Below, piece after piece: positions 7,873 through 12,413 of a DNA stretch of 47,667 bases. This DNA is from a virus, in the IMG/VR virus record IMGVR_UViG_3300046169_000027, positions 1-47,667 of that record; one strand, given 5' to 3'. The notes under the pieces were generated by a model. The model was not told where the DNA came from. It did no database searches and saw only the letters and a program-made list of their open reading frames with translations. Position 1 is the first letter of the stretch; the number at the start of each line of letters is the position of its first letter. Position numbers and translations under genes: made by a program.

Positions 7873-7901
7873 ATTATACCCGTAATTTGGAGGTTTGTCA
7901 A
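7873..7901 (-). promoter_or_regulatory. Leftward sigma-70 promoter for the late (virion) operon
   Basis: On the minus strand TTGACA (7901-7896) is followed after exactly 17 bases by TATAAT (7878-7873), both full consensus. The stretch around the -10 box (TTACGGGTATAATATA) is nearly identical to that of the opposite promoter 60 bases away. Transcription would start near 7866 and enter the 12- and 20-codon leader ORFs and then the small terminase gene. Confidence 0.85.
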
Positions 7902-7938
7902 GTTTTTTATAACTTATTTGCATATAAGAAGAAAAAAC

Positions 7939-7967
7939 TTGACAAGTGGTGTATCTACGGGTATAAT
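7939..7967 (+). promoter_or_regulatory. Rightward sigma-70 promoter for the early operon
   Basis: TTGACA (7939-7944), a 17-base spacer and TATAAT (7962-7967) make a full-consensus host promoter. It shares the CTACGGGTATAATATA context with its divergent partner. Transcription would begin near 7974, leaving about 610 bases of untranslated, heavily folded leader before the first gene at 8587. This is the expected first promoter used after DNA entry, because the phage encodes no RNA polymerase of its own. Confidence 0.88.
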
Positions 7968-8006
7968 ATACTTATAGCCCCCCGGGTTATATATATAGAT
8001 TATGTA

Positions 8007-8457
8007 GCAGGTACATACATATTTATCTATGTACCCGCTTCTATTCCCTTTAAAGCACTTTAAAGCTGCGGCACTATCTGGTTTACATCCAATTCCCCTT
8101 CAAAATGTATAAGATTGTATATATATCCCTAGTACCCCCCATGGCAGCTTGCCCACCCCTTAAAGCTCTATAGCTTTAAAGGGGTGGTTAGAACTTCAAA
8201 GTCTAATAAGACTTTGAAGACTCCCAAGATTCTATAGAATCTATCGGGTGTGTGTAGAAGACTTCTAAGTCTTCCAAGATTTTCTAGTTTACAAAACTAG
8301 AAGAGTCTTAAAACACTTCAAAACCTTTAGGTTTATTTCAAAAACTCCCCAGTCTTCAACGACTTACAAACTTATTAGTCTTCGACTAAACTCTCCGCCA
8401 AAGACTTTAAAAGTCTTCTAGTTCTATCGTGTACACGGAAATCTTCAAAGAAGATTT
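8007..8457 (+). repeat. Array of about ten short hairpins in the early leader
   Basis: This non-coding stretch holds consecutive inverted repeats: 8007-8038, 8154-8186 (14-bp stem with one bulged base), 8194-8219 (11 bp perfect), 8227-8242, 8257-8274, 8282-8302, 8321-8334, 8375-8389, 8401-8417, 8428-8437 (palindrome CGTGTACACG) and 8439-8457. Five or six reuse an AGTCTT/AAGACT core. No ORF of note crosses the stretch. Candidate roles are a structured leader RNA, a replication origin or a packaging site beside terS. The structures are read directly; the role is inference. Confidence 0.75.
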
Positions 8458-8468
8458 TAAAGGAATTT

Positions 8469-8509
8469 TTAGTAGTTATATAACCTATAAAAGGTTATAT
8501 AACTACTAA
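8469..8509 (+). promoter_or_regulatory. 18-bp perfect hairpin before first early gene
   Basis: Bases 8469-8486 and 8492-8509 are exact inverted repeats (core GTTATATAACCT against AGGTTATATAAC) with a 5-base ATAAA loop. There is no T-run after it, so it is not an ordinary intrinsic terminator. It stands 4 bases before the still longer hairpin at 8513-8583, so the RNA would form two stacked stems just upstream of the first early gene. Confidence 0.8.
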
Positions 8510-8512
8510 TAA

Positions 8513-8583
8513 AGTATTCCTTATATTAAAAGTTAAAAAGAAGTTCAGAATGAACTTTTTAACTTTTAAATATAAGGAATACT
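8513..8583 (+). promoter_or_regulatory. Long bulged hairpin A, covering the first early ribosome site
   Basis: About 31 base pairs connect 8513-8547 with 8551-8583. There is one unpaired A on the right arm, a 3-base AAG bulge on the left arm (8541-8543) and a GAA loop; the tip reads AAGTTCAGAATGAACTT. The AAGGA ribosome site of the gene starting at 8587 lies at 8574-8578, inside the right arm. The structure would hide the ribosome site unless cut or melted. It is closely related to hairpin C at 12286-12358. Confidence 0.82.
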
Positions 8584-8586
8584 AAA

Positions 8587-9000
8587 ATGGCAACTTCAAC
8601 TTTCAATCAAATCGACTCAAATCAAATTGCATCGAATCGTCAAGTTTATGCCGTAGCCTGTCACTTCGCTAATATCCACTCCAAGTCTCCTTCGGAGAGA
8701 TATGGATTGACCAAAGTTTTCAATGCAGTCATCAATAAATCCTACAAGGATTCTGATAGCTATATGACTCATGGCGATGCCACAGAGTTCTTCGAATGGG
8801 ATTGTGTTCCACCACAATTTCTTCACATGGTTTCTAAGCCAAAGGCTAAGAAGAAAGTGGTAGCTAAGAAGCCTGTAAAGACTTCTAAGACTCAGAAGAA
8901 AGCTATCCCGAAGGGAAAGGCGAAATTGACTAACACTCAGCGAATTGATTCTTTAGAATCTAAGATGGATAAAATCCTTGAGATTCTATCTGCTAAATAA
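8587..9000 (+). CDS. First early protein, basic C-terminal tail, 137 aa
   Basis: I do not recognise a family. Residues 1-95 form a mixed region. Residues 96-120 are a Lys/Ala/Pro-rich tail of histone-like character (KPKAKKKVVAKKPVKTSK), followed by a short coiled segment (SLESKMDKILEILSAK) likely used for oligomerisation. As the first gene behind the strongest promoter it is a good candidate for a host-takeover or DNA-binding protein. A terminator at 9010-9025 follows directly, so it may be expressed alone at high level. Its ribosome site is buried in hairpin A. Confidence 0.75.
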   Translation: MATSTFNQIDSNQIASNRQVYAVACHFANIHSKSPSERYGLTKVFNAVINKSYKDSDSYMTHGDATEFFEWDCVPPQFLHMVSKPKAKKKVVAKKPVKTSKTQKKAIPKGKAKLTNTQRIDSLESKMDKILEILSAK

Positions 9001-9009
9001 ATCTATCAG

Positions 9010-9035
9010 GGGCAAAGGATTGCCCTTTAATTTCT
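9010..9035 (+). terminator. Intrinsic terminator after the first early gene
   Basis: GGGCAA (9010-9015), a 4-base AGGA loop and TTGCCC (9020-9025) form a GC-rich 6-bp stem, followed by TTTAATTTCTATTTT. It begins 10 bases after the stop of the first early gene and precedes a new promoter-like box at 9049. Confidence 0.7.
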
Positions 9036-9042
9036 ATTTTAA

Positions 9043-9054
9043 CTATGGTATAAT
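9043..9054 (+). promoter_or_regulatory. Possible extended -10 promoter for the small-gene cluster
   Basis: TATGGTATAAT shows a consensus TATAAT (9049-9054) with the TGn extension. The -35 position has only TTTAAT (9026-9031, 17-base spacer). It follows a terminator, which makes a restart of transcription reasonable. It is the same TGGTATAAT form as the promoter at 14015. Confidence 0.5.
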
Positions 9055-9057
9055 CCT

Positions 9058-9147
9058 ATGCGACAGATTGATAAAACTATGATAACTGTTAATTTTGTGT
9101 TTGGTGTTTCAGTAATTCTATTAACTTTAATAGAGCTAGGAGTATAG
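9058..9147 (+). CDS. Possible 29-residue membrane peptide
   Basis: MRQIDKTMITVNFVFGVSVI is the start of a very short hydrophobic ORF with one predicted membrane helix. It ends in GGAGTATAG, where GGAG is the ribosome site of the next gene. The ATG at 9058 lies only 4 bases after the -10 box, so if that promoter is used the peptide would begin at the inner ATG (9079) or not be made. Low certainty, but a near copy of the arrangement at 9306-9392 suggests it is real. Confidence 0.35.
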   Translation: MRQIDKTMITVNFVFGVSVILLTLIELGV

Positions 9148-9151
9148 ATAT

Positions 9152-9316
9152 ATGTTCTTTGTTATGTTTGATGACAATGCAGTAGTTTGTGAGACTCAGC
9201 TAGAAGCTGTAGAGCTTGTAGATTCTTTAACCTTAGATGGATATAGATATATTAGTGTTGGTCATAACCAACCACTAAATGTAGATGAGATGGAGGAAAT
9301 AGAATATGACGTATAG
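9152..9316 (+). CDS. Hypothetical small acidic protein, 54 aa
   Basis: MFFVMFDDNAVVCETQLEAV begins a 54-residue acidic protein. The ribosome site AGGAG (9138-9142) is well placed, and the next short ORF overlaps its end (ATG at 9306). No family recognised. It is part of the accessory small-gene cluster of the early region, where such genes commonly act on host proteins. Confidence 0.6.
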   Translation: MFFVMFDDNAVVCETQLEAVELVDSLTLDGYRYISVGHNQPLNVDEMEEIEYDV

Positions 9317-9392
9317 TTTTATTCAGGGTTTCATTTATGGATTTATAATTGTATTTTCGTATAGATATATTGATTCACTTTTAGGAGTATAG
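9306..9392 (+). CDS. Possible 28-residue membrane peptide
   Basis: MTYSFIQGFIYGFIIVFSYR starts a short, strongly hydrophobic peptide with one membrane helix. A GGAGG-type site (TGGAGGAAATAGAAT) precedes its ATG, which overlaps the upstream gene. It ends in TTAGGAGTATAG, so its stop is fused to the ribosome site of the next gene, exactly as in the peptide at 9058-9147. Confidence 0.45.
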   Translation: MTYSFIQGFIYGFIIVFSYRYIDSLLGV

Positions 9393-9396
9393 AAAT

Positions 9397-9567
9397 ATGG
9401 AAAAGTTTTCGCATCGTGAGATAGAAGTATATACTGTTTGGGTTGATAGAATCCAGATGAGCGGAGAGATATATAATCTACAAGAGGCTAGAGATGTATT
9501 TGACGATTGGATACGTCTTGGCTATACTGATGTAGATTTAATGTGTGAATATAGATTTGAGGAGTAA
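9397..9567 (+). CDS. Small protein of the TVWV family, copy 1, 56 aa
   Basis: A 56-residue acidic protein. Its core EVYTVWVDRI, then IYNLQEARDVFDDWIRLGYTDVD aligns with the product at 11100-11246 (ETYTVWVGGV, then YPVSLDVAHDIADEYIGQGYEDVE). The two are therefore paralogues within this genome. The ribosome site GGAG lies 9 bases upstream. Function is unknown. It is paired with a DpnD/PcfM-like gene directly downstream; the second pair, at 10925-11246, is in the reverse order. Confidence 0.65.
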   Translation: MEKFSHREIEVYTVWVDRIQMSGEIYNLQEARDVFDDWIRLGYTDVDLMCEYRFEE

Positions 9568-9571
9568 AGTT

Positions 9572-9748
9572 ATGAAAAAATATAAAGTATATTATTCAAT
9601 AGCCCATCATGGCTCAATAGAAGTTGAAGCTGATAGTAATATGGAAGCTGAAGATATAGTTTGGGATATGTTGCATGACGATGAAATCTCAGAAAAAGAC
9701 ACTATAGATTCAGATTACCAAGTAGATTTAAGTGTGGAGATAAACTAA
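9572..9748 (+). CDS. DpnD/PcfM-like small protein, copy 1, 58 aa
   Basis: MKKYKVYYSIAHHGSIEVEA at the N-terminus and the pattern of a beta strand, EVEADSNMEAED helix and a final strand match the short DpnD/PcfM-type domain known from phages and plasmids. I chose the ATG at 9572, since GAGGAG (9560-9564) is well spaced, instead of the upstream GTG at 9545. It resembles the 61-residue product at 10925. Role unknown. Confidence 0.65.
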   Translation: MKKYKVYYSIAHHGSIEVEADSNMEAEDIVWDMLHDDEISEKDTIDSDYQVDLSVEIN

Positions 9749-9993
9749 TGAATAGACTTATGCAAATTTCAAACCACATGGATATAGCTTTAGATGCTAA
9801 GGTAGTTCGATATTGTGATGAAACTCAGGTAGTTATATCAATGCTCAATAATCCTAGAAAGGCTCTGGAAAAAGATAGAGTTTATATTGTACACAATGTT
9901 AGCTTTCTTGATGGTTGCTCTGTATTCTGGGGTCATTACGATTTAACCTTTGAACAAGCAGTAAATAGTTTTAACTACAAAGCAAGTTATTAA
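9748..9993 (+). CDS. Hypothetical protein, 81 aa
   Basis: Its ATG overlaps the stop of the previous gene (TAATG), so the two are translationally coupled. The protein has mixed alpha/beta composition with no membrane segment or known motif (MNRLMQISNHMDIALDAKVV at the start). It closes the first small-gene block; hairpin B begins 7 bases after its stop. Confidence 0.65.
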   Translation: MNRLMQISNHMDIALDAKVVRYCDETQVVISMLNNPRKALEKDRVYIVHNVSFLDGCSVFWGHYDLTFEQAVNSFNYKASY

Positions 9994-10000
9994 ATTAAAA

Positions 10001-10058
10001 TGAAGATAAATAATTAGTAAGTAAGTTTCTTACGAACTTACTAATTATTTATTCTTCA
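10001..10058 (+). promoter_or_regulatory. Long bulged hairpin B between early gene blocks
   Basis: 10001-10021 pairs with 10037-10058 (21 base pairs, one bulged T at 10053). The tip contains a repeated TAAG (TAAGTAAGTTTCTTACGAAC) that can pair in two registers, leaving a 5-base bulge on the left arm and a small TTC/GAA stem on top. It resembles hairpins A and C in size, position and bulge side. The ribosome site of the next gene lies just outside the stem. Confidence 0.78.
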
Positions 10059-10073
10059 CAAAAGGAGACGGCA

Positions 10074-10688
10074 ATGTTCAATGTTCACTGTAAAGCGGTT
10101 CAAGAATATTCTCAGCGTAATGCTAACAACATGGCAGACACTGTACTCATGGTAGTGTTATCTATTCAGCAAAACTGGTTAGGTGTCGGCAACCAAATGA
10201 CTGATGTTAGGAATAACAAAGCAGATTCCAAATTTCTATGGGGTAATAAGCTAAAGACTTATCACTATCTAATGGCTAACAAGCACAAAATGTTTGCTCA
10301 AGTCAAAGCAGTGTTAGTAAGTAATAAGAACTATGATGACAGAGCTATGTCGTTGATGAAGATATTTCTTAGAGTAGACGGCTTAGGTCTACCCAAAGCA
10401 GGGTTTTGCTGTCAGCTGATAGCAGGAATGGTTGGTTGTATGGATATTCATAACATTAGAATGTATGACCTAGACACTAAGACTTTGAAGCTCAACCCTA
10501 AACCTAAGACTGAGAAGGCTAAGCAAGCCAATGAAGACAAGACAAAAACCTATATAGCTTTATGTCATGCTTATGGTTGTGAGAATCTTTGGAACTCATG
10601 GTGTGAGAATCTAGCTACAAAATCTAAGCGTTGGCAAGATGCTAACCATGTAAGTGAAGTACATTACACTTATCTTATTGGAGAATAG
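10074..10688 (+). CDS. Helix-hairpin-helix DNA-glycosylase-like protein
   Basis: A 204-residue helical protein. Residues about 100-135 read VDGLGLPKAGFCCQL followed by MDIHNIRMYD. This resembles the hairpin-helix (LPGIGxxxA) and catalytic aspartate region (VDxHxxR) of HhH-GPD DNA glycosylases. The Asp is present, the family Lys of bifunctional enzymes is not obvious, and the rest is unlike known glycosylases. It could be a DNA-repair enzyme or a non-catalytic HhH protein that binds DNA. A GGAG site precedes the ATG, immediately after hairpin B. Confidence 0.5.
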   Translation: MFNVHCKAVQEYSQRNANNMADTVLMVVLSIQQNWLGVGNQMTDVRNNKADSKFLWGNKLKTYHYLMANKHKMFAQVKAVLVSNKNYDDRAMSLMKIFLRVDGLGLPKAGFCCQLIAGMVGCMDIHNIRMYDLDTKTLKLNPKPKTEKAKQANEDKTKTYIALCHAYGCENLWNSWCENLATKSKRWQDANHVSEVHYTYLIGE

Positions 10689-10690
10689 TT

Positions 10691-10807
10691 ATGACTATAA
10701 TTGAAATAAACTTAGAGTTTGAAGCTGATGAGGTTACAGAAGCAGATGTTTATAATTATATAAACGAATTAATCGAGAACAATTCTTTATCCTACGAGGT
10801 TAAATAG
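10691..10807 (+). CDS. Hypothetical acidic small protein, 38 aa
   Basis: MTIIEINLEFEADEVTEADV starts a 38-residue acidic peptide placed 2 bases after the upstream stop and 2 bases before the next start. No family recognised. The tight packing in a series of short genes, all on the same strand, is the main support. Confidence 0.5.
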   Translation: MTIIEINLEFEADEVTEADVYNYINELIENNSLSYEVK

Positions 10808-10809
10808 TT

Positions 10810-10935
10810 ATGAATAGAGCTGAATTTTTAGAGTGGTTAGATACTTGTCCAGTAGAAAATCATGTATGTATAGACTCTACTGAAAGCATTGGCATTATAT
10901 TTTATACAAGCGAGGAAAATAGCGATGAAGACTAA
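10810..10935 (+). CDS. Hypothetical small protein, 41 aa
   Basis: A 41-residue acidic protein starting MNRAEFLEWLDTCPVENHVC. Its end overlaps the start of the DpnD/PcfM-like gene at 10925 in another frame, and the GAGG inside its own last codons serves as that gene's ribosome site. No known domain. Confidence 0.5.
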   Translation: MNRAEFLEWLDTCPVENHVCIDSTESIGIIFYTSEENSDED

Positions 10936-11110
10936 GTTTAAAGTTTATGTGATTGAAGAAATGGAAAGTAGCTATATTGTAGAGGCTGAAAGCATAGCTG
11001 AAGCTGAAAGTAAAATGATGCAAGGTGATTATGACGAAAGCACTAAAGAAATTGAAGACATATATAACTCTAGAATAGTAGACTTAGACGAGGTTGTAGA
11101 TGATGAATGA
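10925..11110 (+). CDS. DpnD/PcfM-like small protein, copy 2, 61 aa
   Basis: KFKVYVIEEMESSYIVEAES, followed by an Ala/Glu-rich helix and a last strand, matches the pattern of the product at 9572 and the DpnD/PcfM-type domain. The ATG at 10925 follows GAGG at a proper distance; the longer version from a GTG at 10889 is less likely. It is followed by a TVWV-family gene, mirroring the pair at 9397-9748 in reverse order. Confidence 0.62.
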   Translation: MKTKFKVYVIEEMESSYIVEAESIAEAESKMMQGDYDESTKEIEDIYNSRIVDLDEVVDDE

Positions 11111-11246
11111 AACCTATACAGTTTGGGTTGGTGGTGTTGAAGCCAACAATTATCCAGTATCCTTAGACGTAGCCCATGATATAGCTGATGAGTACATTGG
11201 TCAGGGCTATGAAGATGTTGAAATTGAGGAGATAAAAAATGACTGA
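11100..11246 (+). CDS. Small protein of the TVWV family, copy 2, 48 aa
   Basis: The start is one of two tandem ATGs (11100 or 11103) overlapping the upstream stop. The core ETYTVWVGGVEANNYPVSLD and YIGQGYEDVEIEE matches the product at 9397-9567, including the GYxDV motif. Function unknown; the duplication of the two-gene set is the notable feature. Confidence 0.58.
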   Translation: MMNETYTVWVGGVEANNYPVSLDVAHDIADEYIGQGYEDVEIEEIKND

Positions 11247-11403
11247 TAAAGAATTTATTGAAGCAGTATTCGAAGAAGTCTATGGCGACAATGCTATCAA
11301 CAGAGGCTTCAGCAAGCAAGATGTAGTTGAAGAATTACAGAACATGAATAACATTATAGGTGGCTATGAAAATAGCGAAACCCATGTATGGCACGAGGTA
11401 TAA
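11239..11403 (+). CDS. Hypothetical protein, 54 aa
   Basis: Begins inside the last codons of the preceding gene with a GAGGAG site about 7 bases upstream. MTDKEFIEAVFEEVYGDNAI opens a largely helical acidic protein. Not recognised. Confidence 0.55.
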   Translation: MTDKEFIEAVFEEVYGDNAINRGFSKQDVVEELQNMNNIIGGYENSETHVWHEV

Positions 11404-11407
11404 AACT

Positions 11408-11710
11408 ATGAACCTACAAGATATGTTAGACGAATATATAAACTATAAAATACAAGATGTCCTTGATGTAGCTTTAGCCAACAAGAAAAAAACTGTAACT
11501 AAAGACTTAGAATCTGTTAGAGGTTGGCTTAGAGAACTAGAGCATACCCTAGATGATGTTAAGACTCTATCCGATGAGAATGAATATAACATTGGAGACT
11601 TTGAAACACGAATCGGTAAACTTGAAGACGATACTGTACAACTAAATCAAGGTGTAATAAAATCTCAAGTGCGAGAGATTCTAACTAAATCTAAACTAAC
11701 TGTGGAGTAA
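11408..11710 (+). CDS. Hypothetical coiled-coil protein, 100 aa
   Basis: I chose the ATG at 11408 (MNLQDMLDEYINYKIQDVLD), which has a GAGG about 9 bases upstream; a longer frame from 11360 overlaps the previous gene. The residues from 35 to 90 show heptad spacing (LRELEHTLDDVKTLSDENE, then IGKLEDDTVQLNQ), so a coiled coil is likely. No family recognised. Confidence 0.6.
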   Translation: MNLQDMLDEYINYKIQDVLDVALANKKKTVTKDLESVRGWLRELEHTLDDVKTLSDENEYNIGDFETRIGKLEDDTVQLNQGVIKSQVREILTKSKLTVE

Positions 11711-11713
11711 ACT

Positions 11714-11953
11714 ATGGAACTTCCAACTCTTGAAGAGTTTGAAAATACTTGTGCCGAACACCTCTGGTTGTTTACCTTAGAGCCAGACTTGAATAGAGCT
11801 ATGGAAGGCTTGAAGACATACCACTATATCCAAGACGTTATCAAGAAAGGTGGCGGTAAATATAAACAGATACACCGCAAAGCATACGAAAAATTTATTG
11901 ACGATACGAAGGAGAATGCCAATGACTACGGATTCGAAAGAAGCTCTAATTGA
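11714..11953 (+). CDS. Hypothetical helical protein, 79 aa
   Basis: MELPTLEEFENTCAEHLWLF opens a 79-residue helical protein with a GGAG just upstream and a 32-base overlap with the next gene. No domain recognised. Codon usage and tight packing are like its neighbours. Confidence 0.6.
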   Translation: MELPTLEEFENTCAEHLWLFTLEPDLNRAMEGLKTYHYIQDVIKKGGGKYKQIHRKAYEKFIDDTKENANDYGFERSSN

Positions 11954-12113
11954 AAAGGTCTTTGAGCAAATGATTAAAGACTTTAGAGACAAAGAATACT
12001 CACCCATTTATGAACTATTAAGTCATGTCCCAACCAATACACTTGAGGGCTTTTTAGCCGAGGTAGAATTTTATGAGAAGTTTTTTCCCAGAGACAATGT
12101 GGAGAATAGATAA
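11922..12113 (+). CDS. Conserved small phage protein, 63 aa
   Basis: A GGAG at 11911 favours the ATG at 11922 over one at 11916. MTTDSKEALIEKVFEQMIKD, then YSPIYELLSHVP and a GFLAEV-type segment resemble a short acidic protein I recall from many T7-like phages (two helices around a Y-x-x-I-x-E-L-L motif). The role is unknown; inhibitor-like proteins are often of this size. Confidence 0.62.
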   Translation: MTTDSKEALIEKVFEQMIKDFRDKEYSPIYELLSHVPTNTLEGFLAEVEFYEKFFPRDNVENR

Positions 12114-12258
12114 GCTGAATACAGCAAGCACTAAACCTAGCTACACAACAGACATTGAAGATGCTAAGAAGCTAGGTGAATCCTATGGCGGTGCTTATAT
12201 TATTACACAGCTAAAGGGTGACAGACTTAAAGAAGAGATGAGGGGATTACATGACTAG
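12097..12258 (+). CDS. Hypothetical protein, 53 aa
   Basis: Starts with ATG at 12097 inside the end of the previous gene (an alternative start is at 12073). MWRIDKLNTASTKPSYTTDI is the N-terminus. No strong ribosome site or known family; retained because the frame is open and packed between neighbours. Confidence 0.42.
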   Translation: MWRIDKLNTASTKPSYTTDIEDAKKLGESYGGAYIITQLKGDRLKEEMRGLHD

Positions 12259-12285
12259 TAAATGTATATTGTAATATATAAATTA

Positions 12286-12358
12286 ACTTACTTAATTACC
12301 TTATAAGTTAATAAGAAGTTCAGTATGAACTTATTAACTTATAAGGTATTAAGTTAGT
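12286..12358 (+). promoter_or_regulatory. Long bulged hairpin C, homologue of hairpin A
   Basis: 12286-12322 pairs with 12326-12358, about 32 base pairs with one mismatch and one bulged T. The left arm carries a 3-base AAG bulge (12316-12318) and the tip reads AAGTTCAGTATGAACTT, differing from hairpin A in one base. The stem near the tip, GTTAATAAG/CTTATTAAC, parallels GTTAAAAAG/CTTTTTAAC in A with compensating changes. It fills most of the 155-base gap before the gene at 12414. Confidence 0.82.
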
Positions 12359-12413
12359 ATACCACAAGTCGAGGCACTTGTTAAGCATTTTTTTAAACTA
12401 AAGGTAAAAAACT

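Follow-up and report, generated by a model that had tools for sequence, protein, structure and literature searches.

Covarying hairpins at early gene boundaries of uncultured marine phages, candidate processing elements of which one is predicted to occlude a ribosome-binding site

The coat protein hairpins of phages MS2 and PP7 carry a small 5'-side bulge near a conserved tip and lie over a ribosome-binding site. The OOP promoter of phage lambda fires against the early operon, with a hairpin near the start of its RNA. The usual size of an RNase III substrate is attained by stems of 17-33 bp, whereas an asymmetric internal loop or bulge, such as that of T7 R1.1, is not obligatory for a processing signal and a conserved tip sequence is not needed by the enzyme. 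In the early RNA of phage T7, RNase III cuts at five sites, and the cutting aids the translation of some of the mRNAs (PMC4858673). The ribosome-binding sites of adhE and lambda cIII are also freed by this enzyme (PMC5371410).

The window analysed here is the whole of the viral record IMGVR_UViG_3300046169_000027, 47,667 bases long, in which the early genes run rightward from ~8.6 kb and the terminase, portal and other structural genes lie in leftward orientation. Its DNA polymerase is nearest to those of the pelagiphages HTVC115P and HTVC103P (~50% identity), and close phage relatives at the DNA level were absent from the phage collection searched. A 1,899-aa protein encoded leftward at 24945-30644 matches phrog_7348 (endolysin) with 2,142 bits. 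Perfect TTGACA-17-TATAAT sites occur twice in the window against 0.03 expected, so that host RNA polymerase probably reads the early operon; a scan of the larger proteins did not reveal a phage RNA polymerase. The two promoters are divergent and stand back to back within 7873-7967, with TACGGGTATAAT common to their -10 ends. From this arrangement, hairpins A, B and C would all be carried on one transcript. The first early gene encodes a protein that is rich in lysine in its middle and possibly coiled-coil at one end, and in the product of the gene after hairpin B, the stretch LRVDGLGLPKAGFCCQLIAG resembles by eye a helix-hairpin-helix motif, with no Pfam family matches. The coordinates of the features are collected in Table 1.

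Table 1. Promoters, RNA structures and genes of the early region in the window (R1 and R2, covariance model matches).
Feature	Position	Strand	Basis or score
Sigma70 promoter, perfect TTGACA-17-TATAAT, leftward	7873-7901	-	motif scan
Sigma70 promoter of the early operon, perfect TTGACA-17-TATAAT, rightward	7939-7967	+	motif scan
Early-transcript leader, predicted hairpins in series	7975-8512	+	folding
Hairpin A0, 18 perfect pairs, immediately 5' of A	8469-8509	+	fold and covariation
Hairpin A, tip of type I, AAG bulge in 5' arm; 3' arm carries the 8587-gene Shine-Dalgarno	8513-8583	+	
Shine-Dalgarno TAAGGA of the 8587 gene, predicted to be paired within hairpin A	8573-8578	+	P(unpaired) 0.001
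First early gene, 137 aa, weak phrog_35860 match	8587-9000	+	
Hairpin B, type II tip, just 5' of the Shine-Dalgarno of the 10074 gene	10001-10058	+	R2, E 1.5e-8
Gene after hairpin B, 204 aa	10074-10688	+	
Hairpin C, tip of type I, AAG bulge in 5' arm, core 12297-12348	12286-12358	+	R1, E 3.9e-14
Putative antisense sigma70 promoter TTAACA-17-TATACT	12356-12384	-	10-12 of 12 consensus bases in relatives
Gene after hairpin C, 84 aa	12414-12668	+	

Hairpins A, B and C are real, well above chance and conserved. The coordinates given for them in the preliminary description of this DNA proved correct, and their folds lie far beyond those of shuffled sequences, with z scores of -8.7 for A, -7.1 for B and -5.5 for C with its flank. 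No bulged hairpin of this kind appeared in 30 simulated 47.7-kb sequences of early-region composition. The stems have 17-33 pairs per hairpin, the shortest being slightly below two helical turns, and are almost wholly Watson-Crick with one small irregularity. A tip shared by A and C had also been described and is borne out: both contain AAGAAGTTCAGWATGAACTT, which occurs nowhere else in the window, and in both the 5' arm clearly bulges by three nucleotides (AAG); A additionally carries a single surplus A in its 3' arm. A small left-side bulge had been ascribed to each of the three hairpins. This is firm for A and C only; B carries a doubled GTAAGTAAG and prefers an RNA fold in which ~17 bp are combined with a 2-bp tip and a 2x2 internal loop (-17.5 kcal/mol) over the less stable drawings with a left bulge (-13.5 kcal/mol) or a right bulge (-13.8 kcal/mol). 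None of the three is among the terminator-like sites scanned for, defined by a G+C-rich stem with an immediate T run, and they were rejected as intrinsic terminators; a T run is lacking at A and B, and downstream of C there are another small hairpin and a T run.

A fourth hairpin, A0, is absent from the three listed earlier. In an alignment of six sequences, 100% of its cells are paired, with double changes at 7 pairs. The 626 nt from 7975 to 8600, which include A0 and A, fold at -194.5 kcal/mol, with a z score of -20.9 against 20 shuffles. The leaders of two relatives, L028 and L029, also have strong hairpins of different sequence.

Relatives were gathered from IMG/VR by neighbouring-protein and tip-pattern searches, and the hairpins were found to recur at matching gene boundaries in dozens of viruses related to this marine phage. 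Where the region is covered, almost every close relative has them ahead of its equivalents of genes 8587, 10074 and 12414; some have one more hairpin, and a few lack one or have a weaker one. A search of relatives for the tip motif, proposed in the preliminary description as a check, thus located the elements at the same intergenic positions. Their tips fall into type I, composed of the AAG bulge and AAGTTC..GAACTT or a variant, and type II, GTTAGTAAGTTCTTACGAACTAAC. The 3-nt bulge is clear in 18 of 18 type I hairpins. A uniform left bulge throughout the family was rejected, given that type II tips can be drawn with a left or a right bulge and, like B, prefer the 2x2 loop. At a given position, the two types interchange: A has a type II tip in L012, L013 and L027, B a type I tip in L012, L026 and L027, and C a type II tip in L016 and L030.

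The full-length A hairpins were misaligned in their arms by MAFFT, and equal-length cores were aligned instead. Standard pairs fill 98.9% of the pair cells in the type I alignment and 92.5% in the type II alignment (12 sequences each), with double changes in 11 of 16 and 12 of 16 lower pairs, respectively. The covariation score was reached by none of 500 shuffles, and shifting the partner by one column lowered pairing to ~50% or less. The lower stems diverge widely yet still pair, whereas the tip is nearly invariant and the most conserved part. Most of the stem changes are flips from A-T to T-A, which in part accounts for the rarity of G-U intermediates; G-U and A-C mismatches number 2 versus 0 in a symmetric count, too few to inform on selection at the RNA level. 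The nearly perfect arms could partly result from templated copying of inverted repeats, and covariation alone does not separate a function in RNA from one in DNA. The tip and stem architecture, the equivalent intergenic positions in relatives and the compensating stem changes give good support to the earlier suggestion that one element is present in copies at A, B and C.

Covariance models built from hairpin cores match early sites only in the window and in the whole records of relatives, at 1-4 copies per genome and with no match in late regions. As a control on the tip pattern, 31 chance matches to type I (22 in bacterial or archaeal sequences and 9 in unrelated viral contigs) were followed beyond the pattern itself, where they pair at 0-6 of 12 positions versus 10-12 of 12 in relatives; hairpin A of the window scores 8 of 12 on this count, owing to its one extra base. 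No Rfam family matched at or above its curated threshold. The element was not found in the three pelagiphage isolates searched (HTVC103P, HTVC104P and HTVC115P) or in stretches of Roseobacter phage CRP-9 and Paracoccus phage ParKuw1, and short hairpin sequences used as queries gave chance matches only. Collectively, the element family is real, strongly covarying and uncatalogued in Rfam, and it belongs to a group of uncultured phages.

The position of hairpin A points to an effect on translation. In most relatives, the first early gene has its Shine-Dalgarno sequence within the 3' arm of A, a short distance ahead of the ATG; the modelled P(unpaired) of this sequence is <=0.001 in 18 of 21 relatives. 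When A is cut in the model 14 bases from the end of the 3' arm, the accessibility rises to a median of ~0.64. The Shine-Dalgarno sequence itself varies among relatives (TAAGGA, TTGGAGA and AGAGAG), and its partner in the 5' arm changes along with it. We infer from this tracking, which is the best evidence on the point, that the RNA form matters. The exceptions are L096 and L109, where the hairpin stands 67 nt before the start and the site is open, and L012 is a partial exception. At B and C, the Shine-Dalgarno sequence is not occluded (0.48 and 0.49), and its modelled openness is about equal in cut and uncut RNA. Gating is therefore not a general feature of the family, and occlusion of the ribosome-binding site in uncut RNA is predicted for the first gene at hairpin A only.

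Hairpin C has a different neighbour. The predicted antisense promoter just 3' of it recurs at the equivalent place in every distinct relative examined, its spacer varying in sequence, and its predicted start coincides with the base of the C core and is directed back into the early genes. No terminator was seen near this promoter. Candidate sense promoters beside A and B, mostly with 7-10 of 12 matches and at varying places, were rejected.

These observations are best accommodated by a model in which the early transcript is processed at the three hairpins, probably through cleavage by host RNase III, and A also gates translation; we give this reading an even chance. A polycistronic transcript starting at the 7939-7967 promoter would carry the three hairpins as cis-acting RNA copies, each presenting a long stem, a small irregularity and a conserved tip at a boundary of early gene blocks. 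Host RNase III or a similar double-strand nuclease would cut the stems during transcription and yield smaller mRNAs. At hairpin A only, the ribosome-binding site would be locked in the 3' arm and the 8587 gene silent until the stem is cut or opened, while cutting at B and C would define new ends of the mRNAs. The anatomy fits RNase III sites in the length of the stems, the placement between gene blocks, the host-type promoter and the ribosome-binding site that would be freed. It is from such resemblance that we infer both the enzyme and the release of translation upon cutting. Because the left bulge is not universal, it cannot serve as the main argument for RNase III. This enzyme does not require a conserved tip sequence, yet no part of the element is more conserved than the tip, a hint of a specific binder.

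This very conserved tip, which RNase III alone leaves unexplained, makes such a binder a serious rival, although we regard it as rather unlikely to be the main explanation. In this case, a specific RNA-binding protein, encoded by the phage or its host, would bind the hairpins and exert repression, activation or antitermination on the early operon; the irregular tip would be the recognition site, and the stem would present it and, at A, hide the ribosome-binding site. Near-invariance of the tip over a drifting stem agrees with this, as do the interchange of type I and II tips at equivalent positions and the recurrence of the type II tip in a second phage group (L152, L171, L173, L182 and L184; 41-45% G+C), where the stem differs and has an additional one-base A bulge on its 3' side. 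That two quite different tips serve equivalent positions speaks against this reading, and a 25-bp stem exceeds the needs of a translational operator. The early-region proteins scanned offer no candidate, since no RNase III or RNA-binding family was found among the proteins scanned, with small ORFs covered in part; more distant phages retain relatives of the 8587 gene without the hairpins, which argues against its product as the ligand. In one member of the second group (L182, 350-646), two type II copies lie 248 bases apart, each shortly before a gene and downstream of TTGACA.

It is also conceivable, though improbable, that the elements act as DNA, either as palindromic joints for the exchange of early cassettes or as replication or regulatory structures, with pairing conserved as a reflection of the palindrome. 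In L092 (4610-4720), a crossover lies exactly in the hairpin tip; it joins two phage lineages, L093-like on the left and L016/L168/L059-like on the right, and brings in a gene cassette, and the resulting stem pairs at 5 of 12 positions. In L047, B and C have long stretches in common as if copied, and the covariation is blind to the distinction between DNA and RNA. Recombination, however, needs homology in the tip and not pairing, all copies lie in gaps just before genes with none in late genes, and the pairing of A with a changing Shine-Dalgarno sequence is a feature at the level of RNA. Equally doubtful, or slightly more so, is a role as uncut mRNA-stabilising or 3'/5'-end hairpins, or as weak terminators, that shield the ends of gene blocks from exonucleases. 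Stable hairpins do stand at block boundaries, the antisense promoter would start an RNA at the base of C, and a small hairpin and a T run follow C; the absence of a T run at A and B, pairing that extends far past the needs of end protection, and the block predicted at A on the start of its own gene are unlike a mere stabiliser. A broader scheme, which we hold as a tentative and rather doubtful proposal, is a family of RNA elements dedicated to these phages, present several times per genome, in which a specific factor reads the conserved tip and which coordinates the early operon through first-gene gating, block ends and an antisense transcript from C, the tips doubling as crossover joints for cassettes.

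The element offers a prediction, readable from sequence, of how the first gene is switched on and the early RNA divided in uncultured phages that are hard to study, and it is a strongly covarying family absent from Rfam that came to light from the raw sequence. The T7-era idea that RNase III gates phage genes becomes testable across many relatives, and the tip crossover would link regulatory hairpins to the mosaic early regions of phages.

In function, the family probably belongs to a known kind, arranged in a new way. Site C resembles lambda OOP in that its promoter opposes the early operon and a hairpin lies near the predicted RNA start, and differs from it in that no nearby terminator was seen. 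The 5' bulge near a conserved tip and the hairpin over a ribosome-binding site recall the MS2 and PP7 operators, whereas the stem here is very long, several copies are present and no binding protein is known. Like the early RNase III sites of T7, such as R1.1, the hairpins are long irregular stem-loops between genes on what is probably a polycistronic early transcript of host polymerase. Compared to R1.1, they are longer and more purely Watson-Crick, with a tip conserved between copies; hairpin A, unlike the T7 sites, is predicted to hide a ribosome-binding site, and cleavage here is putative. The closest likeness in this respect is to E. coli adhE and lambda cIII, where, as predicted for hairpin A, a Shine-Dalgarno sequence is held in a stem that cutting would open. 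These are single cases, whereas hairpin A belongs to a set of repeated hairpins and stays paired with the Shine-Dalgarno sequence even as the bases change.
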